Source: Tricholoma matsutake
Taxonomy: Eukaryota > Basidiomycota > Agaricomycetes > Agaricales > Tricholomataceae
NCBI GenBank assembly: GCA_026075535.2
Contig: AP026539.1
Span: 8,990,001-9,054,000, forward strand
Length of the DNA: 64,000 nt
Direction: 5' to 3'
Shown here: positions 24,610 through 61,841 of the stretch, one piece after another
Position numbering within the stretch: position 1 is the stretch's first letter
How the letters are laid out: each line of letters starts with the position of its first letter
Position numbers and translations under genes: made by a program
The notes under the pieces: generated by a model
The model's input: the letters and a program-made list of their open reading frames with translations, nothing else
Database searches by the model: none
Told to the model about the DNA's origin: nothing

Positions 24610-24617
24610 CCCACTAA

Positions 24618-25883: not shown

Positions 25884-25891
25884 GCTGACAG

Positions 25892-26055
25892 TAGGGTTGC
25901 CAAAGTTCAGTTCAGTCCAGTTCTTGGCACTTTTTGCCTGAACTGAACTTTCACTAATTCTCCAGAACAGAACTGAGAACAGAACAGAACAGGAAAGAAC
26001 TGGTTCTCAACAGTTCTGTTCAGTCCAGTTCTCAGTTTGAACTGGTGAACTGAGA
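25892..26055 (+). repeat. Left TIR and subterminal repeats of the giant element
   Basis: The 22-bp TIR is followed by many CAGTTC and GAACTG/GAACAG words in both orientations. Such arrays are typical binding regions for transposases at element ends; the binding itself is inference. Confidence 0.8.
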
Positions 26056-26540
26056 TAAAAAAACAAAAAATATGCTATGTACCCATTTTTGCACACCAGA
26101 TGAGCCCAATGATGTGTCAAAAGCCTACTTGCAGACCCCAGAAGTCAGCACTCTTGTTATCTCTGACTTCCAGGAATGGAAGGAGCAAGAATGGGCTTGG
26201 GGGCTTGAAACATCACCTAGATGGCATTTAGCAAGAGGAGTACCAGTGGTGGATGATGATTAACATTGTTCAATGCAGTGTAAGAGTGTCCTCTTACATC
26301 AGCAAGCCATTATCACATGCATCCAGTTCCACTGGTATATAGTCTATACTTCGAGTACAAATGAGTGGGCTCGAGATGAGCAGGTTGGGAATATGGTGGG
26401 CAAACATAAGATGATGAATTTTGACAAAAGAATTGTTGTGGGGGTAAAAGAAAATAAGGTGGAGCTCGTCATTACCTTGTTCATTGTTGCAGAGTCCCAA
26501 ACAGCTGTATACAGTCTGTCTTCAGACAGGAGATATCTCA

Positions 26541-27760
26541 TCACTGGGTGCAAGGGGTGATTGGCATTGATGCAGCATCTTCAGCCCAGTTGAAATGTGC
26601 AGGTGATGGGGCTGAACACAGGGGTACAGAGCTCACAGGGAGTGACACAGGAGACAGTGGCTGTGGGGTTGGAGACCAGTCATCAGCTGTTGAAGATGCT
26701 GGGAGCAGCAAAATGGCTTGTTTATGGTCAAGCTGAGGGGATACAGGCGGCGTAGACCCTTTAGGAAAACGAGGAAATTTAGGGGGTGGTGTAGTTAACA
26801 CCATGCCATTTTTTTTTGTAGTCATTTGTATTCATTGTCAAGGGCTGCTGTACATAGCAAATGGTGCATTGGCAGGTATGCTGGGGTTGGCTGGGGTGCA
26901 TGGGCAGTGAATGGGGCACAGGCAATGAACAGGGGGTGTTGACAGTTGTCAACAGCATCGTCAGTGACGTGGCAGGGGTGTACCACACAGATGACACCCA
27001 AATGGTGCATTTATGGGGAGTCTGGGGTGAGCTGGGTGGCTGGGATGGGGTTGGCAGTGAACGGGGGGTGTCCCCAGCTGTAGACATTGTCGTTGATGAT
27101 GAGGTGGTGACATGAGGCAAAGGTGGCATTTGTGGTGACATGACAGCAGCAGTGGGCTTGGGGTGCACAACAGGGGACTGGGGGCAAACTGGGGGTGACA
27201 GGGGCATGTGGGAAATGGTACAGGCTGTTGCTGAGGGAGGTGGAGCTTGTGGGGTTTGTCTGTTGAGCAGACAGTGTGTTTCAATGAATGCAGTCTCACA
27301 AATCTGTTTCCCAGGCTGTGGACAGTTGTTGTTGTTGTTGTCAACGATGTTGGTAGCTGTGACAGTGACAGTAACAGGTCTTGTGGGGAGGTGCAGTAGG
27401 TGGGGGTTAAGAAATGAGACAGGTGGGCTGAAGATGACAGGTGAGACCAGCAGGGTGGAAATGAGCCAGGTGGGGAGTTGTTGGGGGGAGTTGTTGTGCA
27501 TCACTTGAGTCATTGGGAAGCAAGGTGGGGTTGGTAATGGTTGTGCTGGGTCGTTTGAAGTGTTTGGAGCTGAGCAAGACAGGTGGGGTCCGAGACAAGG
27601 TATAGGCAGTGTACAAACAAGAGTAGTTGATAGTTCAAGGTCTGTGTCTGGTGTGAAAAAATTGACCATTTCAGCAATTTCAGGGTCAGTGAGGTTTCAG
27701 GAAAAGAACATGTATGAGAGTGTAGAGTGTAGATAGTAAGTTCATTATTAAAAAAAAGTG
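26541..27760 (-). CDS. Unrecognised Pro/Ser/Thr-rich protein
   Basis: A minus-strand frame of about 296 residues (26779-27669) continues in another frame to 26541. It is strongly low complexity (PPTP, PLSPPVCPQSPVVHP, TTSSSTTMSTAGDT, DNNNNN). Upstream, NLTDPEIAEMVNFFTPDTD looks like ordinary coding sequence preceded by an in-frame TGA. It lies downstream of the KDZ transposase on the same strand within the giant element, so it may be a cargo gene or the remains of one. No motif I recognise. Confidence 0.35.
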
Positions 27761-27932
27761 GAAGGAAGCCAAAGCTTCCAACACTAAAGGAAACCAAGAA
27801 CTATAAGGAACTTAGTATATTTCGGGGGAGGAAACTAAGATACAGTACAAATACTCAAAGTATAGACTATATACCAGTGGAATAACATGTGATACTGGAT
27901 GCATGTGATAATGGCTTGCTGATGTAAGAGGA

Positions 27933-30305
27933 CTACTGCTGGCATTCAATGTCTAACGAGGTGTTAATCATCTGTGCATCACTGACAGCAGATTGCCCAG
28001 CAAGCACCACAACTGTTTCAGCCTGGATAAGCTTCTGGTACACATGACCCTGGGTTGGAGGACCTATCAACTGCATTAACAAATGTAGAACATTTATTTG
28101 AAGATATGAGCATACCATTTTTAATCCAAGGGATGTATACACTGGTCCATTCTCCATTGATCTTTTTAACCATATCATCCATCTTCTCCCATTCATCCAC
28201 CAGTGTGGGACCATGGCACTCTGACAACTTGAGCAGTGTTTGATTGACTACCTTAATCTGGGATAGTGCAGCTTTGTATAGCCATGTAAGTGTAGCAGCT
28301 ATTCACATGGTTGACTTTACTGATAGTGAGATAAATATATGGAGATGTACTGGTCTGATGATATTTTGTCCAGTTCCAATACCCAAAGAAGTCATTGAGT
28401 GTATCGTGGTGGTGACCATCATTTTGCTCCTTCGTACTGCCTGCCGTTTGATTCTGCTCCACCCACCCAGTTTCAATCATCTCCCCATATGTCTCACCAG
28501 AATACTTAATATACTTGAATGCCCACAAAACTTGACAAAGATGAAGGTGCCCTTGGATATGTGCACTTGGGATTGCTCTGTGGATGCATGAAATAATCGG
28601 CAACATGGTAGGGAATCGTTCACAGAAGCGCTTGAGAAGATTTATCCAAAACTGACACCAGATATTGTAGCTTAGCATAATCCAATGGTTGTTCATGCAT
28701 TTAGCAAGAGCGAATGCAAGAGCATAGTCAGTGTTGGCAAATCTGGACATGGTATCAGTCTATAAGTTGAAAAACAAGCAGGTTCACACTTACACTTTGC
28801 CTTTCATCAAATCAACTAGTCCTTGTGGCATGTAGAAACCATGACGTGCACACTGGACAGCCACAACCCCACTAATATCTGCATTCTTGAATTTGATGAG
28901 ATTCTGCAGTCGAACTGCACGGAGATGACTACAAGTGGATTTCCACATGAGAAATGAAAAAATATAACTCGAACACAAGGATAGAACATACATCACAATC
29001 AGGTTGGACACAGGCAAGGTACTTCTTATATTGTGCATTCTCAACAAAATATGCATTGCCTTGATTCAATGCTACATTGTCCGGATCGCCATTCTTGCGC
29101 TTTTGTTGAAGCCGAAAATTGCCATCCATTTACAAGAAAAGTGTATACTTGTGTCTAACAATGTACGATCAGGGGAGAATAACACAGCCTGATTGTAGAA
29201 CTTACATCTCAGTCTCTGGTGCCTCATCAATAGTTTTCTTATCCAAGTTAAAGCCAACTTCAGGACAGGAAGGACATCTTATCATCAAAGAGCCTGGCCG
29301 CCAATGAGTAAGGATAGTGTCAATCGCGTGTGCTTGGCCCGAACGTCTTTGAGTTGCAAGGTGGTGCCAGATACACTCGACATAACAGAATTCCTTGTAA
29401 CGATTCTAGAATATCAATCAGTATCTTGAACCCCAGAGTGAATTTCCCATGCTGACCAGGGTCTGCTGGGGGAATGCTGCATTCAAATGCTTCCAAAGTG
29501 CATCTATATAATCCAGTGCAGACTTTTTTGAGGTTAAACTGTGCATATGAAAGTCGTTGAGAACTGCAAAGGTGAAGGTGGTCTCAGGCCTTTGCATTGT
29601 GGCAGGAAACAGCTGGGATTGAACAAGTTGAATGGCCTCTGGGACATTGTCACATCGACAATATTCGATACAAACATGGTGGATTCCGTTGGTATGAACA
29701 ATCATGGTGTCACATCCAGGTCCAGGGAGACAGTTCCTGCACTTCTCACCACAATGTCCCAGAAAAATTGCAGCACCAAGGGTGTATAATGACGTGTGTT
29801 TGAAGTGGGTGCCACTCCATTTGCTGATGTGATGAAATGGATGTTGGATGTGCATGGAAATGATGCAGGTATGGCAGAGCAATCAAGGTTGGAAACATTC
29901 TTCACATTTGTAGCATGCTGTTTCAGAGCCACATGAGCACTGGCCCCCAATGTCCTTGTGGTAGTGTGTTGAAAGAATTGCAGCTTGAAGAGTATCAAAG
30001 TGAGGGGTGAAGTGTTCCATCATGATTGAGATGCCCTGGTTCAATTGTCAGTGAGTGGCAAGGACAAGACTCAAAGTAAATACCTGGTTGCGCTTCTTAG
30101 GTTGTGGTTTGGTTTTTTGCTCAGATCCAACAGTAGCTGGAGGAGGCTCTGTATGGGGCTTCTTCTCGCTCCTCACATTGTGTAGACTATAAGTTAATGA
30201 GGTCGTAGTGCAGGTGGCAGTAGCTGAGATATGAACTTTGTTCTCATCATCAGAATCGGGATTGACACCGCCAATGCCCTTACATTGCTTCCTTGAATGA
30301 GCCAT
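27933..30305 (-). pseudogene. KDZ transposase with CxC2 cysteine cluster
   Basis: Starts MAHSRKQCKGIGG at 30305. A zinc cluster CSCGSETACYKCEECF...LLCHTC leads to WSGTHFKHTSLYTLG, GEKCRNCLPGPGCDTMIVHT, NGIHHVCIEYCRC and QLFPATMQRPETTFTFAVL, the CxC2 block of fungal KDZ proteins. The RNase H-fold core follows in pieces: DGNFRLQQKRKNGDPD, then ISGVVAVQCARHGFYMPQGL, then SRFANTDYALAFALAKCM, LSYNIWCQF, a GETYGEMIETGW segment and DTLNDFFGYWNW. The C-terminal coiled part ends near 27933 in shifted frames. An intron of about 40 nt at 28,751-28,790 joins MKGK to TDTMSRF. An in-frame TGA at 29885-29883 (CFQP then LLCHTC) and late frameshifts make this copy inactive. It would have mobilised the surrounding element. 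Confidence 0.85.
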
Positions 30306-31640
30306 GCATGCAAGTGAAGAGGGAAAACAGACACATTGTCACTGAGGATTGAAAAATTGTATAACCAGAGTTATGGGCAAAGCGAGTGGCAAAGTGGGTG
30401 GCAAAGTGGGTGGCAAAGCAGGTGGCAAGATCTTTGAAGACCAAGAATATGTAGAAAGCACAACACATGCCACTTAGTGACAATACCCAATTAGTGGAAT
30501 GAAGATGCTCTGCAAGAAGGCAGAGCATTGTCCTTAACCCAGGTACAGGGCTACATGTCAGGTATTGACTAGGCAGCATGGGTGCAAGCAAAACATTGAG
30601 TGACAAAAAGTCTGAACTTGGTTCATTGAGTGATGAAAAGTCTGAACTCAACAGAGGTGACGAAAAGTCTGAACCTCATGGTAGCTAATGGGTTGGATTG
30701 GTGAGAGCAGAGATCCAGGGAGTACAGCGGCTATGGTGAGTGAGGCAGAGGAGATGCGTCGACAATGTATCTGTGGATTGGGGAGGACAATGGTGTGCAG
30801 GTGAAAGTGTTGAAAGGACAAATGTTTAGCTTCCCACGGCATCCAGTCAGGTGATGCTGGAAACACATTGCATCCAAGTCACATCAGAGTACTTAGATCA
30901 ATGGATGGATTTATGAAACGTGACATCATTCACCATGCTCAACCTTATGTATTATTAGATAGAAATGGGGGAACAGGTAAGGGAAAGATTGGAAATATAA
31001 CTACTCCCTACTAGAAATACAACCATGCTTACTAGAATTCCAGGTAGTGGTATTTTATCTTTCCTAATAGAATACAGTTGGTCAGATGGGCAGGGAGTAA
31101 AGTGGAAGCAATACCGGTTATCCACGAGGTGCTTAATCCTTTGTAAATCACCACATGTGTACCTAGCAATGTGTGAGATAATTCCAGGAGTATATATTAG
31201 TGTATCAAACACACCTTTCTTGTTCTGTCACTGGCCTGATGGTGCCTCGATTGCCTATCTTTCCGTCATTCAATGGACGAATCCTTGGATGTCTTCATGA
31301 GCAGTTTGAGCAGGTGCAAATGAAAAGATATACAACATATGGATTGTCCGCACCATGCATGATGTCTGCAGTGTAGAAATATGCCACGCAAGTTTGTGGT
31401 GGTTGTACCTATTGTTGGTTTGGGTGTGGATGGCATGTTTCACCAGAGTAAGGTCTTATATATTGTACAAAACAAAAACACACCTGAACAATAAACCTGC
31501 CAAGTGACAGCCACAGTTCTGAACAATAACATTTTCTAAGTTCAAAGATACACAACCTGCATGAACATAAGGCTGATGAAAAGTCGAAGCCATGATGACA
31601 GATGAAAAGTCAAAGTTGTGATGACAGACAAAGAGTTGTA
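30306..31640. other. Spacer with short tandem repeats
   Basis: A 12-bp unit GGTGGCAAAGTG stands four times at about 30,379-30,425. AAAAGTCTGAAC recurs three times at 30,608-30,674, with a related GATGAAAAGTC pair near 31,572 and 31,600. No convincing gene on either strand; the interval lies between the divergent start regions of KDZ transposase and upstream sequence. Confidence 0.4.
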
Positions 31641-31641
31641 A

Positions 31642-32615
31642 TCATGTACTGCTCTTGGCTGCAAGTTTTGGAGCAGGGCATTGAGCTGATTCACGGTAGC
31701 GCTTGGGTTTTGGTTCTTCAGAAGGGCTAGCATCTGCCTGTCTCTTCTCGGCATGCCCCGTAACTGTGGTAGTCTTGGTGACAACGGAGGGCTGTGTTGA
31801 AGCACCATCTGCATCTGTTGATGAGATGCTTGATGTGTGTGTGATGGGAGTTACAGTGCCAGTGGTCTGATGAGCAACAAGATTTGAGGACAATCCAAGT
31901 GATGTTGAAGTGAGAGTGATGCATTGAGCTTCATCATCATCAGCTATGCCATCATCCTCAGTGTCACCATTACCATCTTCATCGTCAACAGACAATTTAC
32001 AGAGGCTATTCATGGATGCTGTTTGAAGGGCATCTCCTCCAATGCAGTCCTCTTCAAGTTTCTGTTGGATGGCTTTATGCTATGTGATATGAAGAAACAC
32101 TAACAAACTCACTGCCTTAGCCTTTGCCTTCTCAACTATATGTTCCAATTCCTCCAGAAGTGCCGAAATAATGATTCCAGCTGATGATCCACTGAGCGCT
32201 GATGTGATAGCTTTGCATAAGGAGTTGTCCAGGGCCTGTATGACTATAAGCAAGCACACATGCAATGCAGGGGATGAAACCACACCTTCTTATACTTCAG
32301 GAGCACTGCCACCTTGTTTTGAAAGGCTTGCCCAGTGACATGATACTTGAATCCCTTGCTACAAAGCCTATAATATGTGTCAGTCAGTTGAACATAGCAA
32401 CACAAAGTCCATACATGCCTTTGTGCAATCTCGTCCCATGCTGCTCCCTTGCTCCCATGAGGCTCGAGGTAAGGTGGTTTATCAACAATGAGCCAGACGA
32501 GTGTAACAAGATCATTGCCTCCAAACACTGCCTTGTCGGATGTGATCACAGGTGCATCTGTCTTCTTCGCTGCTTTCCCTTGGCCTTTTTTCCCTGCCTT
32601 GGCACTGTTGAGCTA
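31642..32615 (-). pseudogene. SANT/Myb-like gene beside the KDZ transposase
   Basis: The start region is basic (SAKAGKKGQGKAAKKTDAP). It is followed by FGGNDLVTLVWLIVDKPPYL, EPHGSKGAAWDEIAQRHV, YYRLCSKGFKYHVTGQ and NKVAVLLKYKK, the pattern of SANT/Myb-like DNA-binding proteins found with Agaricomycete transposons. An intron of about 42 nt leads to ALSGSSAGIIISALLEELEH and a helical stretch, then after a frame break near 32,080 to KKLEEDCIGGDALQTASMNS-like sequence and a Ser/Thr-rich tail with KRQADASPSEEPKPKRY. It is transcribed in the same direction as the transposase and probably supplied target or end recognition. Partly decayed; true start not seen. Confidence 0.6.
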
Positions 32616-33362: not shown

Positions 33363-33371
33363 GTATGTTAT

Positions 33372-33545
33372 TGTAATGAAACTTGTTTATACTTACTTGT
33401 ACCCCTGGCACATTCCTTATTCGGTACTGGTTTAGTATTAGGTAACAACCTTTCTTACACTACTACCATACCTACAGCAATACCATTTGGTCAAGCTCTG
33501 GGTGTCTGTAGTGAGTAAGACTGCATAAAGGACTGAACCTTTACA
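33372..33545 (+). repeat. 5' LTR of gypsy-1
   Basis: TGTAATGAAACTTG...ACTGAACCTTTACA, 174 bp. It is followed directly by TTTTTTTTGAGCTAT, a motif also found directly after the 5' LTR of gypsy-2. Confidence 0.92.
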
Positions 33546-33654
33546 TTTTTTTGAGCTATACCAGCTATACTTGCTTTACCAGCTTTATCATCTATCCCCA
33601 CACTCCCTCCACATCAACTTCCTTTACCCCATCTCGAAGAGCAACAATGGCAGA

Positions 33655-36429
33655 AGCATGACAGACCCCTTCGGCAATGGGATATACCCCATTAACGAGA
33701 TTAGGGACACTGGGAGGATTGGGTTTGGTAATGAACCCTACCACTGCCCCAAAGTTGGCGACACGAACTGCCACATCACCACCAACAGAAGACTCTGGCC
33801 ACTCGAGTGATACCCACTCAATTGAAACCACGAATTGTATACCCAAACGCAATATGACCCCTTCGTCGGCATCACAGATACCCATTCCAGTGACACTGAA
33901 GGGGAAGAACCCCACATTTGCAAACATCGATACTGGAAGGGAGAGATGAGCACTAGGAGCCTCGACCCCTGATTTTATACCCCATCCCTCCAGGGCTTCG
34001 GCATCGTCTAACAATACCATAACCCTTACTTATGGAAAGTACACCCCAGATCCACGAGACAATTGTAGCAGTCAGATGGCCGTGCTGGACATCTTGACAA
34101 ATTCATCTCCTAGCCGAGAGTGGGAGACAGTAGATAGTATGAACAAGACCCCTGCATCAACTGACAACGAAGGAGACGAGTTCAAAGATACCTTGCGGAC
34201 CTTACAAGAAGGTATCGAGGCTGGTATATGGGTGACACATGGCATGACTAGCACACAATGTAGACTAGCCTTATCTCAGACAGCAGCTAGAAATATTCAG
34301 GCAATCATTAATGTATCGGGCCAGGAACTGGATAAGGATGAGTACACCACAGTGTACATGGCCATACTCAAATCCTTAGCCAGAGCATACCACGATTGGA
34401 AAACAACATTGTGAGCCAGTATGCCAGTATTGAGAGTGGAGGGGCATCCAACTAGGGATGCCATCCCCATCCCACAACCTGAGTCTGAGAATGTATGAGA
34501 GTGAGACTTGCCATCTCATATGGCCAGACCCCTCAATGATCCAGTATTAACTCAGGCCATCAATCAAGTCAACACGCCTCGCCAATATGATGAGCCGACG
34601 GAAGATTTTGGTAGACAAAGAGCGGCTGCCCAAAGGGTAACACCATGAGCATCATTGCACCACAGCCTGAGGGGTCATCATCTTATGAAACAAACCCTCT
34701 ACCTACAATAATGGTCCCAGTATCTACAGGCTGGCAGGGCACAGTTCCCGACAATAGTGTATTGATTGCTAACCTATACCTGCCTCCCAACCATATCCCC
34801 TTACTAGATTGATGGGAAGACCATGTCAGCTTTCAACGGTTATGCAATGCTGCCATCACCAAAACTGGTCAATCTCGCATCGATGACCAAGGTGTCCAAT
34901 TCATAGGACACCGGCCTGTTGGTCATATTTATTATTTCACTGGCCAAGCAGGTGGAGGACATGATCCCAACAGAAGTGATGGTAGTAGCAATGGTGGTAA
35001 CAACAGCCATCACGATAACCCTCAGCCGCCTAACTGGCCATGGCATAACTTGCACACCCCCCCACATAATGGGCATAACAACCCACCATCAGACCCTCCA
35101 GGAGGACCAGGTGGAAACGGTGGTGGCAGAGGCAGAGGCGATGGTGGTGGGGGACCTCCAAGTAATGGAGGTAATGGTTCCCCCCCACCCAATAATAATT
35201 GAGTGAGCCATGGGTTTACAATGCCACCCCCAGCTCCACCTCAAGGAAGCACCCACGGAGTACATGAGGCTGCTGAGAATCACAGAAACTCGATGCATGA
35301 GAGACTGTACAAACTCATATGGCAGCATCTCACTGTGAGACTGGTGATCCCACCAGGCACAAAGACCAGGAAGACAGACATGAGCTCTGTTGGCAAGTAC
35401 ATCGGAGGAGCCAAGTTTAGTGACTTGGAGAACTGGCTCGCCAACCTGGTAGTATTGTTTGAAGCTGAATAATACAGAGGTGCAGATCAAGATAGGGAAT
35501 GTGTCTTACACATTCCCCAATTCCTCAACAATGAAGCAAAGAAGTGGTTTAACCACCACATATTGCATGTTCAAAGGACCCAACTAATGTGGTCATTCAA
35601 GGAAGTTGTGATTGGGCTGTATGATCGCTTCATACATCCCTCTACAATGCAAGACATGCATGCTGCATTCTTTGTGGCCTGCTACACTGAGGATAAAGGC
35701 ATACAAGGTTTCTATGACACCCTTGTTGACTATGCCCAAAACATGGCAATGTATCCAGATGCATACCAACTTGTTGAGACATTCCTTTGCGGTATACCTG
35801 CCTACATATGCAAGTGTATGATTAAGGATGGCTTATCACCCGAAGTCAACACTATTGATGACTTTGTGGCTAAAGCCAAGAGACATGAGGCAGCAAAGAA
35901 GATGCTGGATTACTATAACAAGATGACCCCGCACTCAAATCCTGCTCAGAAGGCATCAACTCCACACAAACCATTGAAGCCAACCTTGAAAAAGGTGGGC
36001 ACAACCTTCATACAGAAACCATGGCCAAGGGAAAACACTAAAGACGTCAGTGAGAATCGACAGTTGTTCATCAAACTGAAGGAACATCACAACAAGGGGG
36101 TGCCCATGGTGCACCAACACAGGTTTTGTAACAATGCAAAACCACCCAATACAGGGCACCCAGGTCCAGGCCCACAGGCCAAATCCTCGAGATGCTTCAG
36201 ATGTGGAGGTCTCAGGCACTGGGCTGACAAGTGCGAGGAAAACAAGAAAGACCAAGTACAGGCAGCTCACACAGAGAAACCCGAGGACTTCCAGAATGGT
36301 ATCGAGGAGCTAGCAGATGACGGCAACTTGTCAGCTCACAACTCCCATGCCAGCCACAACACTAACCTCACCGATGATGAGGAGTATGTAGAAATGGATG
36401 TCTATGAGCAAAACAGCTTCTATGAATGA
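33655..36429 (+). pseudogene. gypsy-1 gag
   Basis: A long N-terminal region, with the clearest segment at 34076-34414 (DEYTTVYMAILKSLARAYHD), is followed by a Gly/Pro/Asn-rich stretch near 35,080-35,200. The gag core begins about 35,300: SVGKYIGGAKFSDLENWLAN, NNEAKKWFNHHILHV, VIGLYDRFIHPSTMQDMHAA and QGFYDTLVDYAQNMAMYPDA. The zinc knuckle is CFRCGGLRHWADKC. TGA stops at 34412-34414, near 35,470 and at 36427-36429 split the frame. Gag would form the intracellular particle. Confidence 0.8.
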
Positions 36430-36990
36430 GAGACTGAAACTGAGTTCATCGCTCCCATGTTCGACGTAGGAGACCATCGCAGCAACACAATGGCCACACT
36501 AATGAACGAAGGAACCATGACTCGAGAGATTAGGTTGAGGAAAGCCCATGTGAAGATGTCCAAGACAGCCCATCCACGTCCAATAATTACCCAGGAGGAC
36601 AAAGAATGTTTAGCAACATTTGTGTCTGTAGGGGGATTTAAGGCCTGGACCTTGTGGGATTCAGGGAGCACTACCACCAGGATCACACCCACCTTCACAC
36701 AGGTGGCTGAGATCACAGCCTTTCCACTCTTGAGCCCACACACATTACAATTGGGAATGGTGGGTAGCTGCTCCACCATAAACTTTGGGATGGAAACCCT
36801 GGTCATGGCACCAGGGGTAAACAGCACCATCTACATGGACATCATGAATTTCAACTGCTATGACATGATAATTGGTACACCGTTTATGCAAGCTAATTGA
36901 GTACATCTCGATTTCGAGCATAACCAGGTAGTAGTCAACGGGGTAGTGATCCCTGCCATGAAAGTTGAGTTAGCCGATACAGACGGGCAT
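36430..36990 (+). pseudogene. gypsy-1 aspartic protease
   Basis: LATFVSVGGFKAWTLWDSGS contains the active-site D-S-G-S, followed by TPTFTQVAEI and, toward the end, NFNCYDMIIGTPFMQAN. A TGA at 36898-36900 stands where gypsy-2 reads K (NKNKVVLDF against N-stop-VHLDF). The retropepsin would cut the polyprotein. Confidence 0.82.
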
Positions 36991-37985
36991 CTATGTCAGT
37001 ATCGTGCAACAGACAAAAAGAAAAATTGACTACATGGACACCCACAATGACCCACCATCAAGGAGGTCCCAGACAAAGAGGGAGGGCAAGGATTACCATC
37101 CTTGCCCAAAGGATTGCAGGCGATCCTCCTAACCGAGGAAGAGTATAAAAATACCCTTGAAGGAGGGGGGAATAGTATCCCACTGCTGGAAACAGAAAAA
37201 AAAAACTGATGAAAAGTGGCCAACAACGACAAAAGCCACCATTCAAAACCCACCATCAACAAAAAGCAGTTCGAGAAATGGCAAGAAAGTAGAGTACAAT
37301 GACCATAACGTACAACACTGCCAGCCAACAGGGCACGCTAACCCTGACATGCAGCACTGTCAACCCACATCATCGAAGACCAAGGTTGAGGACCTGGTAA
37401 CAAATGATGAAGAGGAAGAACCGCTACAAAAAGAGCAGGCATCATATGCCGGCTCCAGACCGTTCAGAGATAGACCAATACCCAAGCCCCAATTCAAGTG
37501 GGCACATAATCCATGTATGCCATCGGAATGGAATGAGGTTGTAGCTGCAATGAGGGAGTATGAGGGAACCCGGAGCCACCAAACTCAGGGCTCATACCGC
37601 AATGCAGCTGAAGATGAGATTTTGGAACCAGAGGACTTCCATCACCCAGGATACATGAGTAGCATACATGTGGATCAGGTGAAAGCTCAGATGGTTATGA
37701 GACTACCACTTGGGAAAGAGGACTGGGACCTCAAAAAACTATGAGCTAGATTCGAGAAGCCCCAATCCATAACCTCCAAACTGAATGCACCTGAAGGTCC
37801 ACCTGAACCTGCAGTCGACAAAGGCAAGCAGAAGGACACTCGGGAGCCACCTCCCAACCAATACTCCCATCTACGTGATCATTGGTGTGATGATTACGCT
37901 GATTTCATGGATGGAGTTCAAGAGGTACTACCACCCTGGCAAGAGGTGAACCATGAGATTCACCTAATCAATGAGAGCAAACAGT
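36991..37985 (+). pseudogene. gypsy-1 protease-RT linker
   Basis: Low-similarity linker shared in outline with gypsy-2: FKWAHNPCMPSEWNEVVAAM here against YDWPHNPRMPDEWNAMVASM there. TGA at 37742-37744 and a further frame break precede the RT at about 37,900 (VLPPWQEVNHEIHLI). Confidence 0.7.
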
Positions 37986-41064: not shown

Positions 41065-41280
41065 TCCGTGGTGGGCATGAGCTTGGAGTCATGACTGCTA
41101 ATGGACTAATGGTGGCAGTGCCATGATACAACTATACACAACAAAACTTAAACTCAAAATTAGTGTTAACAATCATGTGCAAAACAATCACGTGCAAGTT
41201 GAAACCCAAAAAACTTCAGACTTCAAATCCCACACCTACACTTCACACACTTTCTGCTGCCTTACCAAAAACACCACAAC

Positions 41281-44444: not shown

Positions 44445-44491
44445 GTCCTATATTTACGTTGTCTCAACTCAGTGCTAAGAAATTTCCATAG

Positions 44492-48420: not shown

Positions 48421-48602
48421 TGTAACGGTTAGTTACTAGCTGGGAACTCTTAGGACTTACTTTGCACTGAACAGAGCAGATTCCAGTATAATTGGTAGCT
48501 ATGTTGAGTACATCATAAGTAAAAGTAATTGTTCCAAACAAGCATCAACAATGTAAGTAAAAGGTCCTGCATAAACCAACAATAAAAGCTGCATCCATTA
48601 CA
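48421..48602 (-). repeat. 3' LTR of gypsy-2
   Basis: In element sense it starts TGTAATGGATGCAGC and ends CTAACCGTTACA. It is preceded on the minus strand by the polypurine tract AAATGGGGGGTG. Confidence 0.93.
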
Positions 48603-48649
48603 CACCCCCCATTTGAGATTACCTCCTGGGAATCTACCTCCTAGCCATA

Positions 48650-51250: not shown

Positions 51251-51282
51251 GTCAACGTGGGCAGAAGAAGCTTGGTTTGAAA

Positions 51283-51304
51283 TTTTTTTTTTTTTTTTTT
51301 TTTT
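51283..51304. repeat. T22 homopolymer
   Basis: Twenty-two T in a row between the chromodomain and the extra gene of gypsy-2. On the element's sense strand it is an A-run; it could mark an old polyadenylated junction, but this is only a guess. Confidence 0.9.
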
Positions 51305-51319
51305 CAGGATGTTCCCACA

Positions 51320-51545
51320 ATCCAGCTATCTCTTCAGCTATCTAAGTTCCGTGTTTGGCCAGCTGAGATGGTCATTGTACACCTGGGATTTCAAGGTATC
51401 GGTCCAAGGCAGTGAGCTCTTTGCATGAGCTCATTGGCTCCCAGGTGGTGTCGCCCAATGACCATCGGACTTTGAATTCGAGGTTATTTCCTTCAGTCCA
51501 TCAGTGTCCTATCAGGTCTTCAACAAACCATTCCTGATCATCTGG
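51320..51545 (-). pseudogene. gypsy-2 chromodomain
   Basis: [13 protein letters not shown] is followed by VRWSLGDTTWEPMSSCKELT and LDRYLEIPGVQ, matching the chromodomain of gypsy-1 residue for residue at the W, T-W-E and R-Y-L-E positions. A stop at about 51,500 splits it from the integrase frame. Confidence 0.78.
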
Positions 51546-52887
51546 CATTCCAAAGTCGTACAGTTCTGGTTGTACTCTATTGGGGAACATAGTGTTGTTG
51601 TTTGCATGGTAGGGCTGTAACAGCGACACATGGAAGGATGGAACAATCTGTCTTGCCTGTAATGCCATAGGTAGTTCCAATGTGTATGTGGATGTCTTGG
51701 GATTTGCCTCGAGTATCTTGTACGGCCTTATGAATTTTGGGCAGAGTTTGTAGGCGCGTCCCATCGGTAAGTTGAGGTTCTTTGTAGATAAGAACACCAA
51801 GTCCCCTTTGGTTATCTTCAGCTCAGTAGTACGACGGTTATTAGCATGGTGGGTTTGAAATACCTGTGCCTCAATAATTGTGTTGTGTGCATCGGCGAGG
51901 TTTTGTAGCGCTTGTCTGGCAAACTCTTTTATTCCTTTGGGTATGATGTCGTCCAAACAGATCTCACAAATCATAGAAGGTATATACCCACTATTTAGTT
52001 TGAATGGCGCATATTTGGTGGTTCCAGATACACTGGCATTGATTGCAAACTCCATAAGGTCAATCCTGTCAACCCAATCCTTCTGATCATTATGGACAAT
52101 CATGTGGAAAATTTGTCCAACATTGCAGTTGGCGCATTCAGTTTGTCCATCGGTCTGAGGATGGTAGGATGTAGACATCAATAACTTGGTTCCTAGAATT
52201 TCATGGAGCTCACGCCACCACTTTGAGGTGAATTTTGAGTCCCTATTGCTCACAATTGAACTTGGGAGCCCATGCAATCATATGATCTCCCGTCGGTAAA
52301 CCCATGACAATTTGGATGCCTTCATCTTGGTGTGAACGGGCACTAAGTGGACCATGCTAGTCATCCAGCATATAATCACCCAGAGGTAGTTAAAGCCTTT
52401 TGATTCTGGAAATGGTCCTATGAAATCCATTCTGATAGAGTCCCATGGCTTGATTGGTACTGGTAAGGGGTGAAGCTTCCCAAAGGGCTTGGTGTTGGAC
52501 CCTTTCGCGCATTGACAAGGCTCACAGGTTCGGCAGAATTCACGGGTGTCCTTGGCCATGAGGGGCCACCAGTAATATATTCTGCCATTTGTTGGCCTCC
52601 AAAATGTCCAAGTATAGCATGGGCTTGATCCAAGATCTGGGTAATGATGGCTCAGTCACATGGGATACATACAACTTCATCGTGATGTTGATTATTCTGC
52701 CAGATGAGGCCGTCCTTGACAATGAAGTCCCGGTATTCTTTTGGTTTATCCTGGATAAGTGTAAATAACTTATCATCTTTATACCCAGCTTGAATTTGCT
52801 TTGTAAATTCTTCACTTCCCCAGGTTGTTGGCGTGGCATTTGAAGTTCATTCAAATAGGGCCTCAGCCAGGGTGAGGTCGTCACCAT
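51501..52887 (-). pseudogene. gypsy-2 integrase
   Basis: The zinc part (DQAHAILGHFGGQQMAEYI and CRTCEPCQCAKGS) and the core D in IRMDFIGPFPESKGFNYLWV, D in [19 protein letters not shown] and E near [15 protein letters not shown] are present; in the last block relatives read T-E-R. An in-frame TGA at 52280-52278 replaces the conserved Arg of REI(V/I)-R-LHGLP. The C-terminal part ends [20 protein letters not shown]. Otherwise the 51501-52277 segment is a long open frame. Confidence 0.85.
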
Positions 52888-54598
52888 ACAACGATGGGTT
52901 CAATCCCGCCAATAGTTTTTCCAATACAGATGGGGGGCTTGCCCCCTTAGACAAGTTGTTGTTAATGTGTTGGTTAGCCTCTTCCATGAGTCTGGCTTCT
53001 AGATCACATGACTCCTGTTGCTCCTGAAGGTGTTTGCTGCACCAGAGCTCAGTATCACGTATGGCTCGTAATTCAATCACTTTGGATGTAGCCTCTCGGT
53101 AGCGTTGGGCAGGTAAGTCTTCTCCTGAGGGGTTGATCCAAATGTCAGCCTGGACATAGTTGTGAGGCTGATGAATGTTGGTCATGGTATCACTTTCATA
53201 ATACTGAGAGAGACAGTCGGCCACTTTGTTAAGGTCACCCTTGATGTAGGTGATGTCAAAATCAAACTGAGAGAGATAATCTGTCCATCTCCATTGTCAG
53301 CTGGTGAGGTTAGCCTGGGTCTTGAAGAACTCGAGCACCTTGTGATCTGTAATGATGTGTATATGGTATCCGATGAGCTTGTCTTCCCATTTTAGTAAAG
53401 CTTCAAGGATGGCAAGAGTTTCCAATTTATGCACAGCGTAGTTATGTTGGGCAATGGTGAACTTTTTTGACATAAATCCTGCTGGGCGGCATTCTTGCCA
53501 GGTAGGCCCTTGGCCATACATGGCTCCTACACCCAATTTCAAGGCATCACATATCAGCCATATGGGCTCATCTCGGTGTTTGGGGTCAATGGGTGCAATG
53601 ACTGGTGTCTTGCAGCAAATCCATTTGATCATGTCAAAACACCATTGGTGAATTGGTCACTGGAAGGGGGTTCCATTCTGGGTCATAGCCAGTAGAGGTC
53701 CGGTATAGTGCATGATATCCGGTAGGAAGTTGGCCAGGTAGTTTACCAAGCCAGCAAAACATTGAATGTTGTTATAGTTCTGGGGAATGCGCCACTCACA
53801 AATACAAGCAAGCTTGTCCATGTCCACATGTATACCATCCTTGTCAATTATATGGCCAAGACAGTCGACCTGTTCTCTGTACAAGTCACATTTTGACAAC
53901 TTGAGATATAGTTGACTGTTCCTAAGGCATTCGAAGATGATACAAAGGTGCGTTTCATGTTCCTCAGGTGTGTTGGAATAGATGAATATGTCATCCAAGT
54001 AAACATGTAGGAATTTGCCTATAACATCCCTGAATATGGATGTCATAAGCAGTTGGAATGTCGCCGGTGCATTGCAGTCTCCTTGTTGCATGATGAGGCT
54101 GACGTAGGTCCCTGCAATTGTGGCAAAAGCAGTCTTCCATATGTCCTCAGTTCGTACTCGAACCTGTTCATATGCATTGGATAAGTCGACTTTTGAATGA
54201 ATCTTGCCTCGAGCTACGTCTTTGCGAATCACATCTTGGTCAGGTAAGGGAGTTACATCTTTTATCGTGTTCTCATTTTGTTGCCATGCATCTATGACCG
54301 TTTGTAGCTTCCCATCCTTCTTGTTTACGCAAAGCATTGGGGCTGCTTGGCTTACAGATCGGGGCTCCCACCATCCTGCATTTATATAACGGTTGATCTT
54401 CTCATGAAATTGTTCGCGCAGGGCATGTGGTACCCTCAGCAGGTGGTAAGTGTACCATTTATCGTCATCAATAAGATGGATCTCATGGTTCACTTCTCTC
54501 CAGGGTGGTAGTCTATCCTGGGTTACCCCTAGGATATCAGTGAATTCCTCATGCCATTGTTGGCATAGTCGTGGGTAGTCTTCTTCGGTAAGTCCCAA
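52888..54598 (-). pseudogene. gypsy-2 reverse transcriptase and RNase H
   Basis: RT from about 54,598: NRYINAGWWEPRSVSQAAPM, VIDAWQQNENTIKDVTPLPD, VDLSNAYEQVRV, MQQGDCNAPATFQLLMTSIF and an intact catalytic box YLDDIF. RNase H: IWLICDALKLGVGAMYGQGP, HKLETLAILEALLKWEDKLI and DITYIKGDLNKVADCLSQYY. Stops at about 53,655 and 53,296 interrupt an otherwise well kept protein. In contrast to gypsy-1 the active-site Asp pair is kept. Confidence 0.88.
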
Positions 54599-56047
54599 CT
54601 CTCTGGACTTACCTTTCCATCTACACGATTCCTCACATTGCTTCTCTTTTGGGTCTGGTGGCTTCTTAGGCTTGTCGAATCTGACATGAAGTGCTTTGAA
54701 GTCATGTTCTGAGTCGGCCTCCCATGGTTTTATTCATACAGATGTCTGCCTCCTAACATGGTCCATTTGGTGGGGCTCGATAGATTGTCGATCCATAAAT
54801 TCTGAGGGTTCAGATATCTCATCCTCAAGGGGTTGTTGGTACTGTTCTCCTCTTGGAATTGTACGGTTTCCGTTGTATTCTCTCATGGATGCAACCATGG
54901 CATTCCATTCATCTGGCATTCTAGGATTGTGTGGCCAATCATATTGTGGTCGAGGGATCAGCCTGTCCCAGAAGGAATGAGTACTCTGACTTGTCATCAC
55001 ATTATCCTGTTCTTCGAGGATCTTTTCCTCTTTGTCCATGATCATATCTTCCACTTTCACCTTGGATGACATGGGTTGGCATGACATACTGTCGGATTTT
55101 TCATTATTTGTATTGAGTTTTGTTGGTTTACAGTCCTGTTTTTCCCTCTGTTGAAGAGCCTTAAACTCTTCATCATTCATAAGGAGTGCTGGGGCTCCTT
55201 CTGGTAGTGTATTTTCATTTTTCTTGTTGTCATCCAGTATTTCTTCTATGATTGGTTTGCATCCATGTAGTCAGTTTTTTCATTTGTTGACACTTTGATA
55301 TTGATGTAGTCGCACGTTGTTATCACCCAATAATACCTTCACGGCTGGTGTCAGCTTGCCATTGATGATGACTTGCTTATTTCCAAAATCCAGTACGACC
55401 TTGTTCTTATTCATGAATGGAGTCCCGATAATCATATCATAGCAATCAAAGTTTGCAATATCTACATAAGTATCATCACTTATGCCTGGGGCTTCCATCC
55501 TAACATCTGCGCCATAATTTACTGTTGCTTGACTTCCTACGGTTCCCAATTGTAACATGTGAGGGTTGGTTGATGGAAACACTCAGATGTTGGCCACTTG
55601 AGCAAACGTGGGGGTAAGACCCATTGTAGTACTTCCTGAATCCCATAATGCCCATGCCTCATATCCGCCAATAGATACAAACATGGCTAGGCATTCCTTC
55701 TCCTCAGGTTGATATTCCAGTCGGGGTTGGGCTGTTCTGTCAGTGCGTAAGTGTACCTTATGAAAACTGGTTTTATCTATGTCCTGTGCCAATCCATCTT
55801 TGTGAGGCCTTGTCATAGGGACTTGGTCTGCCTCTCGCATCGCGAACATGGGGTCAGAATCAGATTCACGTTCATACCAGTCGTTGTTGTCATATACATC
55901 GATCTCGACTAGTTCATCATCATTGCTCTGATGGCCTTGGGATCTGTTGGCCTGTTGAGTACTGTGTTCTGACACTTGATGGTCTTGTCCAGTGTTGTCA
56001 GCCTCCTCCTTGTCAACTATAGCAGTGTGGGCTGTTCCTTGTTCCAT
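54599..56047 (-). pseudogene. gypsy-2 protease and linker
   Basis: Protease: MFVSIGGYEAWALWDSGSTT with active-site DSGS, TPTFAQVANI, a TGA, then ANFDCYDMIIGTPFMNKNKV. The linker has two TGA codons near 55,280, then YDWPHNPRMPDEWNAMVASM and a TGA near 54,732 before the RT. Confidence 0.82.
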
Positions 56048-58580
56048 TTGGGCTTCTTGCAGTCTCTAGCATAGTGTCCCTGTTCATCACAATTGAAGCA
56101 GATAACATCTGGGCCAGTGCCCATGGTGTTCTTGTCCTTTTCGTGATATGCTTCCCGGGCCCTGTCCACTGAGGGCTCTTGTTTCCCACTTGTGTGGTGG
56201 TGACCATGTGGTTTAGACTTGAAGCTTGGCTTGGTATATGCATTTGTGCGGTTATTTACAAAGATCTTGGGCTTTGATCTGCTGCTGTAGTTATTCAGGT
56301 CTGACTTCTTCATGAAAGTTACACCAACTTTCTTCCTTTTTTCCTCATGTTGGCTCTGTGTTTTAGGTGTGTCTGAACTTTGCGTTGTGCTCGACGGGTG
56401 TCAGACATAATGGGTGACCATCTTCATGGCTGATTCCAGTGCTTTACCTTCCGATACGAAATCCTCAATGGTATTTGCCTCTGGCGTCAGTCCATTCTCA
56501 AGCATTTTGGTATGCATGTCCTTGGGTAGTCCACGTAGGAAAGTATCCATGATATTATAAGCATCTGGGTACACAGACATGTTCTGAGCGTGGTCTATGA
56601 GGGTATCATAAAAGCCCTGAATACTGAGCTGGTGCAAGTATTTGGTGTCATATGCCTCATGAGCCTCTTGCATTGTAGTTGGGTGCATGAACTGGTCATA
56701 CAGCCCTATGACCACATCCTCAAATGACCAGTGGAGCTGGGAACGATTGATGTGAACCACATGGCAGGCATACCATTTCTTGGCCTCGCCTGACAAGAAC
56801 TCAGGGATGCAGATCATGCGTTCCATATCCTGGTTGTCCCCACCATACTGGATTGCTTGGAGCATCGTGACTAGATTGATGAGCCAGTTCTCTAAGTCTG
56901 AGAACTTAGGCGATCCACTGTATTCTCCTATGGATCTGGCTTCGGCTCGGCGAACCTTTGCTCCTTCAGGTGGTCTGATTTGGTAGGATAAGCACTCTCA
57001 GCACAGTTGCAGCAGTCGGTTGTGCATTTGAGTGCAGTGATGATCGTTCACCACTCGTATGCCAGGTGTGTGTAACCTGGCTTGGTCGGCTGGCAGCATT
57101 GAGTAACCCATGCATAAGGGCCATTGATTGCTAGCACTCGGATCATCCCCTCCAGGATTGTATCCTCCTCCATCATCTGGGGGTCCACCGTCACCACCTC
57201 CACCACCTCCAGGTGCACTGTGGGGGGCACAGCCTTGGCTGGGGCAGCGGGGTACATTCGGCCGATCTGGGGGTTGTCTGCGGTTTCCGTTGCTTTGGTC
57301 ATTGGCTCCATCAGCACCATTATCTGGGTCATCAGGTGCTGGGGGTTGTCTTGCCGTACATGCGTAACATGGATCCAGCATATCAATTGGCTGGTGCCCA
57401 TCGAATATTATCCCCTGGTCATCATAGAGCGATCTCCCAGAGGCACTGATGTCCTCATTTCTAAGCTGTTGATAGATGATCCGATCCTTGAGGTCGGTGG
57501 CCCTAGGGATTTGTGCATTACGTGGTACCTGAATCACTGGTCCTGAGGCCTCAGAAGCTCCAGTTGCTAACGGCCGAGTGGATTCCATTTCTTCCATGGG
57601 CTCAGGCTGATGGAATGTCATGGGTGAAGGTGTCTTGTCGAAAGTAACATGGTGGAGCTGGGTGGCTGCATCATGATGTCAATGATAATCCCCGTTGGAT
57701 TCATCTGGCTGTTGGGGGGCGTTGATGTGGGCTATGGCTCCCTCTACTGCTGGATCCAGCTGCAGGAAACTTGGATGGATGTCCCATTGCTGGGGTATCT
57801 GATATTCTTCGTGTTCCTGTTTAGGCTGACATGACAGCGTCTCCATGTCCTGCATCACATAGCCATCTATATCTATCGACGATGGTGTTGCTGTCAGCAT
57901 ATCTGTTTTCTTCGAAGCAATTTGCTTTGTGATGAGTGCCTTGAAGATATCCAGGTACGTAGTCTTGTAGAATGTTGAGGCCAGGGCCACTTTCTTTTTC
58001 AGGAGGGTTAGGACCTCTGTGGTTTGGTTGTGCGCTACCTTTCTGAACTTCAAGAGAAGACGAAAGTTCATGTAAGGGCCCTCATTCCAGATTGCCACAT
58101 CGCATTGGTTCAATACATCCATGGGGTCCTCAGGTTCAATTTCCTCATTATCCATAAGTTCATGTCCATCCATGTCAAGGTTGATGGTCTCGATGATTGG
58201 TCGTATGCGCACAGGGGTGTGGGGTACGTGGGGTCCTGAAGCGGGATGTTGCCTTCCAGCCTGAGTTCCGGAGTTTTAGGTGTTTGATGCAGAAATGTGA
58301 ATGCTGGAGCCAGTGGGAAGTAGGGCAACTGTTCCTTTCGGGTTTTGGGCAGGAAAGGGTTTTGGGCAGGAAAGGGTTTTGGGCAGGAAAGGGTTTTGGG
58401 CAGGAAAGGGTTCGGCATGCTTGAGGTATGCCTGTCGCTCATTTGTTGACCGGTTCCCTGTGGCTTGGTTAGTTGCATAGCAGATCTGGTCAGCACTGGT
58501 ATTGATGACTGAGCTTGCATCCTTTGTCCTGGTCCCGTTGCCTGTGCCTTTAGAGAGTCTGCTCTGGGACTCTCACCCAC
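56017..58580 (-). pseudogene. gypsy-2 gag
   Basis: A long N-terminal region (58,560-57,000) contains a 17-bp tandem repeat and a helical segment TTYLDIFKALITKQIASKK comparable to the gypsy-1 N-terminal region. The gag core has SGSPKFSDLENWLINLVTML, SGEAKKWYACHVVHINRSQL, VIGLYDQFMHPTTMQEAHEA and QGFYDTLIDHAQNMSVYPDA. The zinc knuckle is CFNCDEQGHYARDC (C-x2-C-x4-H-x4-C). Frame changes occur at 56,315-56,400 and 57,000. Confidence 0.8.
58340..58407. repeat. 17-bp tandem repeat, four units
   Basis: GGGTTTTGGGCAGGAAA stands four times without a mismatch inside the gag N-terminus of gypsy-2. The unit is not a multiple of three, so the encoded peptide (PNPFLPKT...) cycles through frames. Confidence 0.93.
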
Positions 58581-58823
58581 TCTCGATGCTCCTCCTGCGG
58601 TTCATTCGGGCTGTCAAGGTGGTTTTTGTGGGGTAGGAAGTTCTTGGGCACCTCCTTCTGTGGTGTGTTGCTGTGTAGCAGTAGCAGTAGTCATTCTTCT
58701 TGTCGTTGTTGACATTGTGTCACTATGTGGTGTTATTGGTTCAAAGTCTAAAAAAAAGGAAATAACTTTATAACTTTCTAGGTAAGCTGATAGCTTCCCA
58801 AATATTTGAATAGCTCAAAAAAA

Positions 58824-59005
58824 TGTAATGGTTAGTTACTAGCTGGGAACTCTTAGGACTTACTTTGCACTGAACAGAGCAGATTCCAGTATAATTGGTA
58901 GCTATGTCGAGTACGTCGTAAGTAAAAGTAATTGTTCCAAACAAGCATCAACAATGTAAGTAAAAGGTCCTGCATAAACCAACAATAAAAGCTGCATCCG
59001 TTACA
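58824..59005 (-). repeat. 5' LTR of gypsy-2
   Basis: 182 bp, in element sense TGTAACGGATGCAGC...CTAACCATTACA. It is followed on the minus strand by TTTTTTTTGAGCTAT, as in gypsy-1. Confidence 0.93.
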
Positions 59006-61100
59006 CCTGACTTCAAATCATGTTTTGGATATTCATCGAACACAGATGGGTTGAGTATGGAGTCTATAAATATGGTGTGTTCATACATTTGCTTGTGCCA
59101 CTGTTGAGTCTCACTATAAATTTAGAAGCTAAAGCGGTGGTTTACAAATAATGGCAAGCCGGGTACTACTGCAAAGCAAACAACAGCCTGATCAGTCAAA
59201 AAGCCACACGCCAAGAATGCATTGGATGTCTTTGTCAAAGAAAATAAAGAGGCAATTGTGGAGAAAGCCAGAGACTTGGCCCAGAATGAAGGTCCAAGGG
59301 CTCCAGGTGAAACTTTGAATTCATGGAAGCAGGCTCAGCAAGTAATGTTTGATGAACTTGACTTGGACGCCAAGGCAAGATACAAATCACAAGCTGCTGC
59401 TCAGAACAAGAAGTTAGACTGTCCTCCCGATGTAAAGGAGATCTACGCATACATCATGTTATGTATGTAACACATAATTATCATGTTAATAAATTACGAC
59501 ATCTACAGCAACCAGGCTGGCTTTGTACCCAAGATTAATGATGCTCTGCTGTTGTTGTCTGGGTGGGACTGGGGCCAGTGTGGACCATTGGTCCATTTTG
59601 TACAAGCTGCGTATTGTAATGAGAAAGACTGACTCAAAACCTTGAGGTATGAATGTTCCATCTAACAGTATGCTATAGTCACTCATGACAATCTAGCATT
59701 TCCCTTAGCGATGATCTGAAAATGAAGGACTTTGCTTCACAGTTACCTGACTTTGACAATTTTCATGATCATTTTAAGGAGTGGGCTACTGCGCTTCTAC
59801 CAGGTATAGTGATGACCGGTGATTCAAGGCTAGATTACTGATTTCCTGTGCAGAGAAACCCATGCCAATGGACATTGTTGATGATCAAGCCAATGCACAG
59901 CCTCTCATTAATGTCGTGCTCGATAATGACCAGTTTCCTCACCTCATATTACCTGGGGACCTTGATGCCATCACAGTAAAGATGATCAAGCATGGATTAA
60001 CGGACTACATGTTAGCAGCATGGGGTATGTACCTCCCTTTTTTGGATTCATGGTTTCTTAATAACTTGACTAGAACACACACTGTCTTGTGGATTTTCTA
60101 CTCCCATTCCATGGACATCTCTCAAGTTGACATCTTCAAAGTTTTTTGCATACCCTGACCCACTGGTAACATTCCAGCATCTTGAGCCTGCGCAGTTGTT
60201 GGCAGATGACACGTTCCACATGCTGGAATTGATTAGCAATGCTCAGATGAAGAATGAGGCATCTCCACTCAAGTTTGCAGTCACCATTGAAATGCTCAAT
60301 AGCCTTACTCGAGGGGATGAAATAGAAGAGATCGTCAACCCACTCCCATCATCCACCAATGCCAAGATGTTGCATGGCAAGGGAAAGGCAAAAGCGACTA
60401 ACACTGCTGCAGTTGACTTTTCCCCTGCTTTCTTCAAGCCCAATACTGAGGGAGTGGACACTGCCACTGGCAACACTGATCTTGGTGGTAGTTCTGGTGT
60501 GTCAATGGACATGGGCGATGGTAGGGATACTGCAATGAGGACTGAGCAGGATGGTGGGGATGATGATGGAGTGAACAATGAGCACCCAGCTGTTCCAGGT
60601 GAGGTTTGTTATTGTTGCAGTCAATGAGTGTATCTGACAGTGAAGTAACAGCGACTACAGCTAGGAAACACAAATCGGGTATTAACAAGGCATGCAAGAC
60701 TTCTGCTGCAGCCCCTCAAAAGAGAATGAAGAAAAAAGCTCCTGCATCCTCCCCAATCATTGATGATACAGAATCTAGTGCCCTGCCACCACCTGTCCAG
60801 GAAGATCCACCACTGCTTTACAAGTTGAAAATGCCAATGGTTGCCACTTGCAAACGTGCAGAAGACATATCTGGAGTGGTTGATGGCACTGCTTCAGGAA
60901 AGCACAATGCCAGGGGGGGGAAGCATGCACGGGGTGAAGAAACTGTTGCTGCGGATGAAGGTCCACAAAAGAAGGCCAAGACTTCAAAATGCACTGACTT
61001 GCCAGTTTGTAGCAGTCGTCGGTATGTACATGTAATTGTGTCAACATTATTTCAACTCACTCAAGATTGCATCTCAGGATTCAACAGGATGGATATATTA
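59006..61100 (+). pseudogene. Gene B, downstream exons
   Basis: Resumes as DFKSCFGYSSNTDGLSM, then after an intron of about 50 nt LKRWFTNNGKPGTT, a TGA at 59189-59191, and ALDVFVKENKEAIVEKARDL...WKQAQQVMFDEL. Later exons: ALLLLSGWDWGQCGPLVHFV (59,540-59,610), a TGA at 59630-59632, KDFASQLPDFDNFHDHFKEW (59,730) and PMDIVDDQANAQPLINVVLD (59,862). The C-terminal part (60,127-61,080) is Lys/Ala/Asp-rich with KKAPASSP and HARGEETVAADEGPQKKAK, perhaps a nuclear tail. The layout, a W-F-x-N motif, helical middle and a G-W-x-W-G-Q-C-G-P block, is that of multicopy hypothetical proteins of Agaricomycetes; the function is unknown. Confidence 0.6.
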
Positions 61101-61184
61101 ACATGAATGTGATGGTTAGAAAGCAGTAGGAGTAGGTGTTAGGATGTAGTAAGATTAGACTCAGACTCTGTGTTAGACAACTAG

Positions 61185-61330
61185 GATTGGATGTGCCAGG
61201 ATGGGATGCATTGGGATCGGGATTGAATGTGTCGGGATTGGATGTGTCAGGATGGGATGGGATGCATTGGGATGGGATACATTGGGATTGGATGTGTTGG
61301 GATTGGATGCATTGGGATTGTATATAGGTA
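61185..61330. repeat. Minisatellite, unit GGGATTGGATGYRTT
   Basis: About ten loosely conserved units of 10-15 bp built from GGGATTGGATG, GGGATGGGATG and TGTCGGGATT. It lies just after gene B within the giant element. Frames through it (for example 61136-61327) are not genes. Confidence 0.85.
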
Positions 61331-61659
61331 CCCCGCAATTGACATAGGATTAATCTTAGGATAGTTCATGTAGTGTATTGCCAACAGTAGTCAGGATTAA
61401 TCCTATCTCTCTTTGATTATGAACATCGGATCATCCCATTAACTTTGGTCCCTGGGCTAGTCACCAACTGTGACACGTCATCAACATGACATGACATGTG
61501 ACATAGAAGATCGCATTTCTTGAAATTGGTGTGGGTGATATAGCAGCTCTCATCACTTGGAGGACTGATCCCCTCAAGCTCCATTGCACCCTTGAGTTCT
61601 AGCATATGCACAAGATGTAATTATTGCTCATTTCAGTGCCCCCCTAACCCCTCAAAAAG

Positions 61660-61833
61660 CTCAGTTCAAACTGGTCTGAATCTCGGTTCTCTTGCCATGC
61701 CCATGTCCCAAACCGAGACCCAGAACCATTATGTCCAGTGGCTGGACTGAACCTGAACTGAACAGAACTGTTGGTTCAGTTCTACCAGTTCTGGTTCTTT
61801 GTGTCAGTTCAGAACTGAACTTCAGCAACCCTA
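61660..61833 (-). repeat. Right TIR and subterminal repeats of the giant element
   Basis: Contains the CAGTTC/GAACTG array matching the left end and closes with CTGAACTTCAGCAACCCTA, the inverted TIR, followed at once by the TSD copy GCTGACAG. Confidence 0.8.
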
Positions 61834-61841
61834 GCTGACAG

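Follow-up and report, generated by a model that had tools for sequence, protein, structure and literature searches.

We analyzed a 64,000-nucleotide stretch of the Tricholoma matsutake genome (hereafter the window, C2:8990001-9054000), in which an earlier note had described positions 25884 to 61841 as a single 36-kb KDZ transposon carrying a KDZ transposase gene and two gypsy retrotransposons. The genome searched comprised 13 contigs (labelled C1 to C13) and 161,040,721 bases. Our results indicate, with a probability of about 95%, that the locus is a nested cluster of transposons and not one transposon. The outer 22-bp terminal inverted repeats (TIRs) and the 8-bp target-site duplication (TSD) are those of a short non-autonomous hAT-type element of ~0.77 kb, that is, a miniature inverted-repeat transposable element (MITE). 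A Kyakuja-type KDZ element, which has ends of its own, sits within this MITE at MITE position ~387, and two gypsy retrotransposons sit within the Kyakuja element (Table 1).

The outer boundaries were present as previously described, with 22-bp inverted ends, a perfect 8-bp direct repeat outside them and CAGTTC/GAACTG-rich subterminal stretches visible at both ends. The 22-bp match between the two ends was found in none of 100 shuffles. Allowing up to 3 mismatches, the genome contained 325 occurrences of the outer end pattern (166 in forward and 159 in reverse orientation), while the reversed control gave 0 occurrences. Homology searches were performed with window 25892-26500 (best 40 of 445 candidates scored) and window 60600-61833 (best 40 of 65 candidates scored) and yielded many short loci; the two MITE halves were then compared in 30 fetched loci, leaving out L011 and the overlapping short views L001-L008 and L029-L044. 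In 12 of these 30 loci (L023, L024, L026, L049-L057), the left 387 bp and the right 379 bp of the split element in the window were adjacent, with gaps of 0-55 bp, thereby forming a MITE of ~0.77 kb; the junction sequence was read in seven of them. At 1.95 kb, locus L026 exceeds this length because of an interruption in its own right half. In intact MITEs, the sequence across the break point is CAATGCAGCTGGCTAGTCACC or closely similar, whereas the window reads CAATGCAG... on one side and ...GGCTAGTCACC on the other. Short elements with both end regions and a TSD were precisely what the earlier note had named as evidence against a single 36-kb unit, and the adjoining halves at these 12 loci contradict that unit.

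Flanking octamers were compared in the 23 loci with a readable end pair (duplicates dropped, window excluded). They agreed at 8/8 positions in 16 loci, at 7/8 in four and at 6/8 or fewer in three, while 506 mismatched pairings used as a control yielded 8/8 in none and 7/8 in one. Six of the 12 loci with adjacent halves had a readable end pair, with agreement of 8/8 in three (L049, L050, L053), 7/8 in two and 6/8 in one. The outer ends, which agree 8/8 in the window, carry the 8-bp TSD of hAT elements and form, as previously proposed, a true pair from one insertion. Moreover, the hAT dimerisation domain PF05699 is encoded by three cousin elements (L010, L013, L015), which span 2.7-4.2 kb and have perfect 8-bp TSDs. 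It was detected in all three C-terminal pieces scanned (E-values of 3.6e-11, 1.3e-11 and 5.9e-10, respectively), and the left ends of these cousins are 79-81% like that of the window over ~190 bp. No transposase was found in the window's own MITE. Like other non-autonomous (MITE) members of hAT, the outer element combines an 8-bp TSD, a TAGGG-type TIR and subterminal short repeats with the occurrence of short copies and of cousins bearing a hAT dimerisation domain. Unlike other hAT MITEs, the window copy is split by an insertion of ~35 kb.

The KDZ transposase gene reported inside the interval was also recovered. Pfam scans, which covered selected frame pieces of the KDZ gene, the cargo and the gypsies, located the KDZ domain PF18758 within 28256-28759 (minus strand, E-value 4.3e-28) and the CxC2 domain PF18803 within 29421-29882 (minus strand, E-value 2.1e-29). 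This gene had been assigned to the outer ends, but the KDZ element has ends of its own and 7-bp TSDs elsewhere in the genome. Homology of the interior stops at window 61454/61455 at both C5:2778867 and C6:1873854, and the sequence beyond is unrelated. The terminal sequence at this point, CAGGGACCAAAGTTAATGGG, had nine genome occurrences at no more than 2 mismatches; six of these sites, including the window, share the bases further in, two (C3:12809624 and C2:12211854) do not, and the C8 site was unread. This right end occurs with other flanks at C5:2778867, C6:1873855, C2:10937692, C13:1724151 and C5:223371. A search for the left end gave 13 matches (eight left ends, three right ends and two unread), and the left ends read at eight places had seven distinct flanks. 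On C6 and C5, the termini read CACCATACAAAGTT... and ...AACTTTGGTCCCTG, and 7-bp TSDs flanked both sides of the two elements for which both ends were read (GAAGATC on C6, CATGCTT on C5). When the C6 flanks were joined with one GAAGATC, an open frame of 130 amino acids (aa) ran through the whole joined stretch.

According to Kojima (2025, PMC12730594), Kyakuja elements are characterized by 7-bp TSDs, 5'-CA..TG-3' termini and no TIRs. The inner element matches Kyakuja in the length of its TSD and in its terminal dinucleotides, and the outer ends do not. Since the TSDs differ in length (7 bp for the inner element, 8 bp for the outer one), the two elements are separated by TSD length alone. The Kyakuja elements of Agaricomycetes presented there (PMC12730594) share with ours a KDZ and CxC2 transposase, CA..TG termini and, in the two copies read at both ends, a 7-bp TSD, whereas the T. 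matsutake element of the window and C6 has no TET/JBP match, carries frames without Pfam hits and a core motif at its ends, and in the window is without its left end. Two separate observations were made on other copies. The C5 copy consists of two halves (C5:2739655-2750034 and C5:2778867-2781813) that lie ~29 kb apart in opposite orientation with TSDs still matching, which we read as an inversion or a large rearrangement inside the element. The left ends at C1:12981100-12981300 and C1:18873800-18874000 are bordered on the outside by identical sequence over at least 38 bases, which may point to a further duplication.

MITEs frequently originate by internal deletion, and in the window paired ends with a perfect 8-bp TSD enclose a KDZ gene. 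The short elements could accordingly be internal-deletion derivatives of one large KDZ transposon bounded by TAGGGTTGC ends, and 8-bp TSDs are made by Zisupton (Kojima, 2025, PMC12730594). We nevertheless consider such an origin very improbable, as the interior also stops at 61454 in the C5 and C6 copies, whose flanks are unrelated and whose TSDs are 7 bp long, intact MITEs are contiguous through the insertion point, and cousin elements with such ends encode hAT. Furthermore, among the matches listed, the outer left end is joined to the interior elsewhere only in a permuted duplicate of this same locus, which is presented below. Ownership of the TAGGGTTGC ends by the KDZ transposase was rejected because the Kyakuja ends are independent and the element that holds the KDZ gene is bounded differently.

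The left edge of the Kyakuja element in the window is truncated. Its KDZ homology ends at 27934, and all four copies fetched there (C6, C5, C3 and C7) extend past this position, with left ends lying 1.3-1.8 kb further out (the C6 gypsy not counted) and starting with CACCATACAAAGTTAATAGGATTCATC or a variant. A 1.65-kb TIR element occupies the place due for the left Kyakuja end and the remainder of the left MITE, from which we infer a deletion at this edge. Loss of the left part of Kyakuja would explain the C-terminal truncation of the transposase. With a truncated transposase and a lost left end, the window copy probably cannot move itself, and we regard it, on its sequence, as probably dead. 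The unit of ~14.3 kb previously thought to have preceded the gypsy insertions actually adds up from the ~0.77-kb MITE, the 1.65-kb TIR element and ~11.9 kb of left-truncated Kyakuja. The 1.65-kb TIR element itself holds a 305-aa low-complexity frame, and its right ~530 bp (about 27403-27933) is repeated in many places. We propose that the MITE would have been placed first, by a hAT transposase acting in trans. Kyakuja would next have inserted into the MITE, duplicating the 7-bp GGCTAGT, of which the right copy alone remains, and a deletion at the 1.65-kb TIR element would then have taken the left Kyakuja end together with the C-terminal end of the transposase.

Several observations weigh against this nested arrangement. 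In 16 of the 30 loci, the outer parts alone matched and the interiors differed, and in two others (L058, L059) the left half only was found. The elements with a hAT domain are cousins and not the exact autonomous partner of the window subfamily, and Pfam did not find a hAT domain in four L012 frames or in two other L010 frames. Joining the C5 flanks, which are shorter, gave a longest frame of only 58 aa. Because the window has neither the left Kyakuja end nor the left copy of GGCTAGT, no TSD within it demonstrates the insertion into the MITE, and the 9 bp separating the MITE left half from the TIR element were assigned to neither. The Kyakuja assignment was based on the ends, the TSD and the KDZ and CxC2 domains, and not on a transposase tree. 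Lastly, just inside its two ends Kyakuja has a core of ~15 bp, CAAAGTTAATRGGAT, that is inverted between left and right, although the outermost 7 bases largely differ; the absence of TIRs expected of Kyakuja therefore applies only loosely.

Another arrangement to be weighed is a composite that is still mobile as a 36-kb unit, in which the split MITE would be moved in trans with Kyakuja and the gypsies as passengers. In its favour, the outer ends are both intact, their TSD is perfect and hAT-like genes are present in the genome. However, this perfect TSD is accounted for by the original MITE insertion, and a second copy of the composite was not found, the window alone matching across the 61454/61455 joint among the best 40 of 65 candidates. 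The other copy found of the left end belongs to a segmental duplicate in which the flank outside the TSD is present as well. We consider continued mobility of the whole unit very improbable. This left end, at C2:9159322 (100% over 609 bases), was rejected as a second transposon copy because the match includes 24392-25891, outside the TSD, and is part of the segmental duplicate.

The two gypsy elements reported inside the interval were both recovered from their pairs of long terminal repeats (LTRs) and their reverse transcriptase (RT) domains. The LTRs of gypsy 1 (33372-33545 and 44271-44444) are 97.1% identical, with 5 differences over 174 aligned bases, and those of gypsy 2 (48420-48603 and 58823-59006) are 97.3% identical, with 5 differences over 184. 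In the pieces scanned, RT, RNase H and Tf2-1 SH3 domains of gypsy 1 were above the cut-off and its integrase domains below it, while RT and SH3 domains were above the cut-off for gypsy 2. Both resemble Ty3/gypsy elements in their LTRs, RT domain and 5-bp TSD (perfect in gypsy 2), but differ from them by an extra frame 3' of the integrase. The extra frames (43226-43789 on the plus strand and 48965-49741 on the minus strand) are related to each other (39% identity over 136 aa, E-value 6e-30), and a Pfam scan gave no hits for them. A Kyakuja copy free of both gypsy inserts, such as the earlier note had recommended looking for, lies on C6 (C6:1873855-1896976, its own gypsy included), in agreement with the view that the two gypsies are later insertions. 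This copy is contiguous at the gypsy 2 site, with a single CCTGA, and at the gypsy 1 site, where it reads GTTATATATTTAC. The flanks of gypsy 1 differ at two of five bases, and the C6 sequence suggests that GTTAT was likely the original target and that the right copy, GTCCT, has changed. The C6 copy bears an apparently different gypsy near its left end.

Regarding the cargo of the Kyakuja element, an exon of gene A had matches of 65-77% at no fewer than 28 other sites of the genome (best 40 of 74 candidates scored). A homologue search with one exon of gene A returned five proteins, none informatively named, one of them a fragment from T. matsutake with 91% identity across 26% of the query, and a search with one exon of gene B returned one protein; full-length relatives are not retrievable from such single-exon pieces. 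Neither Pfam on the pieces scanned nor the exon homologues explained the identity of genes A and B. In line with the earlier description, the locus has no TET/JBP match: the genome gave 61 matches to PF12851, and none fell in the window or in C6:1873855-1896976. The cargo may be unusual.

Table 1. Features of the nested locus, in window positions.
Feature	Position	Strand	Remarks
8-bp TSD GCTGACAG	25884-25891 (left copy), 61834-61841 (right copy)		Direct repeat, perfect
MITE left half	25892-26278	+	TIR TAGGGTTGCCAAAGTTCAGTTC at 25892-25913 (+); homologous to MITEs where it runs into the right half
Junction sequence, 9 bp	26279-26287		Between MITE left half and TIR element
~1.65-kb TIR element	26288-27933		Inverted ends GTCCTCTTACATCAGCAAGCC...; inverted-repeat match from 26288 and 27933; parts multicopy
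Kyakuja-type KDZ element, left-truncated	27934-61454		Two gypsies inside; ~11.9 kb without them
KDZ transposase gene (CxC2 + KDZ), C-terminal end missing	27934-30338 (outer limits approximate)	-	Pfam, frames, comparison with C6, C5, C3 and C7
Open frames, probably the 'SANT-like' gene of the earlier note	31645-32612	-	No Pfam hit, two pieces scanned
Gypsy 1	33372-44444	+	Flanks GTTAT/GTCCT; absent from C6 Kyakuja copy
Cargo gene A, open frames	44608-47796	+	No Pfam hit, three pieces scanned
Gene B, first exon	48173-48420	+	Broken by gypsy 2; uninterrupted in C6 copy
Gypsy 2	48421-59005	-	Perfect 5-bp TSD CCTGA
Gene B, remaining open frames	59006-61103	+	No Pfam hit, two pieces scanned
Kyakuja right terminus	61435-61454	-	...CCCATTAACTTTGGTCCCTG in + orientation; same end with unrelated flanks on other contigs
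MITE right half	61455-61833	-	TIR TAGGGTTGCTGAAGTTCAGTTC at 61812-61833 (-); begins as intact MITEs do
Intact ~0.77-kb MITE			Sequence expected at the window site: GCAGCTGGCTAGTCACC

The left part of the nest is also included in a duplication on the same contig. A segment of ~33.9 kb, from C2:8987790 to about C2:9021698 (starting 2.2 kb ahead of the window and reaching window ~31698), recurs inverted and circularly permuted at C2:9127344-9161231, ~106 kb away. Window 8000-15000 corresponds to C2:9143361-9136325 and window 18000-23981 to C2:9133325-9127344, both inverted and at 99-100%, and window 23983-31698 corresponds to C2:9161231-9153517, again inverted and at 99-100%. After this second block comes the sequence from C2:8987790 into window ~1038, where the alignment of 3.2 kb is gapped and 96.7% identical; the part of the duplicate matching window 1-1038 alone is at 99.3%. 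These identities cover the parts compared; for window 1038-8000 and 15000-18000, the lengths fit. Where window ~31698 meets C2:8987790, the two sides have a 5-bp microhomology, ATTCA, in common, and joining the flanks of the duplicate gives a continuous 142-aa frame across the target. Such a layout is as would be expected from a circle cut open and inserted. It is likely that the segment circularised via the 5-bp microhomology, opened at window 23981/23983 and was reinserted inverted ~106 kb away. In wine yeast, one study (PMC3053389) reports the amplification of a segment through circular DNA.

These results call for caution, as a matching pair of TIRs and TSDs around a transposase need not mark a single element; at this locus, the superfamily of the inner transposase is not that of the outer ends. 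The genome yields two copies of Kyakuja in which both ends and the 7-bp TSDs can be read, and the C6 copy supplies the pre-insertion state for both gypsies. A Kyakuja element that has no TET/JBP match yet carries uncharacterised cargo frames is a modest lead. The circularly permuted duplication is likewise a modest lead and, if the proposed origin is true, it would represent a segmental duplication via a circular DNA intermediate in a mushroom.

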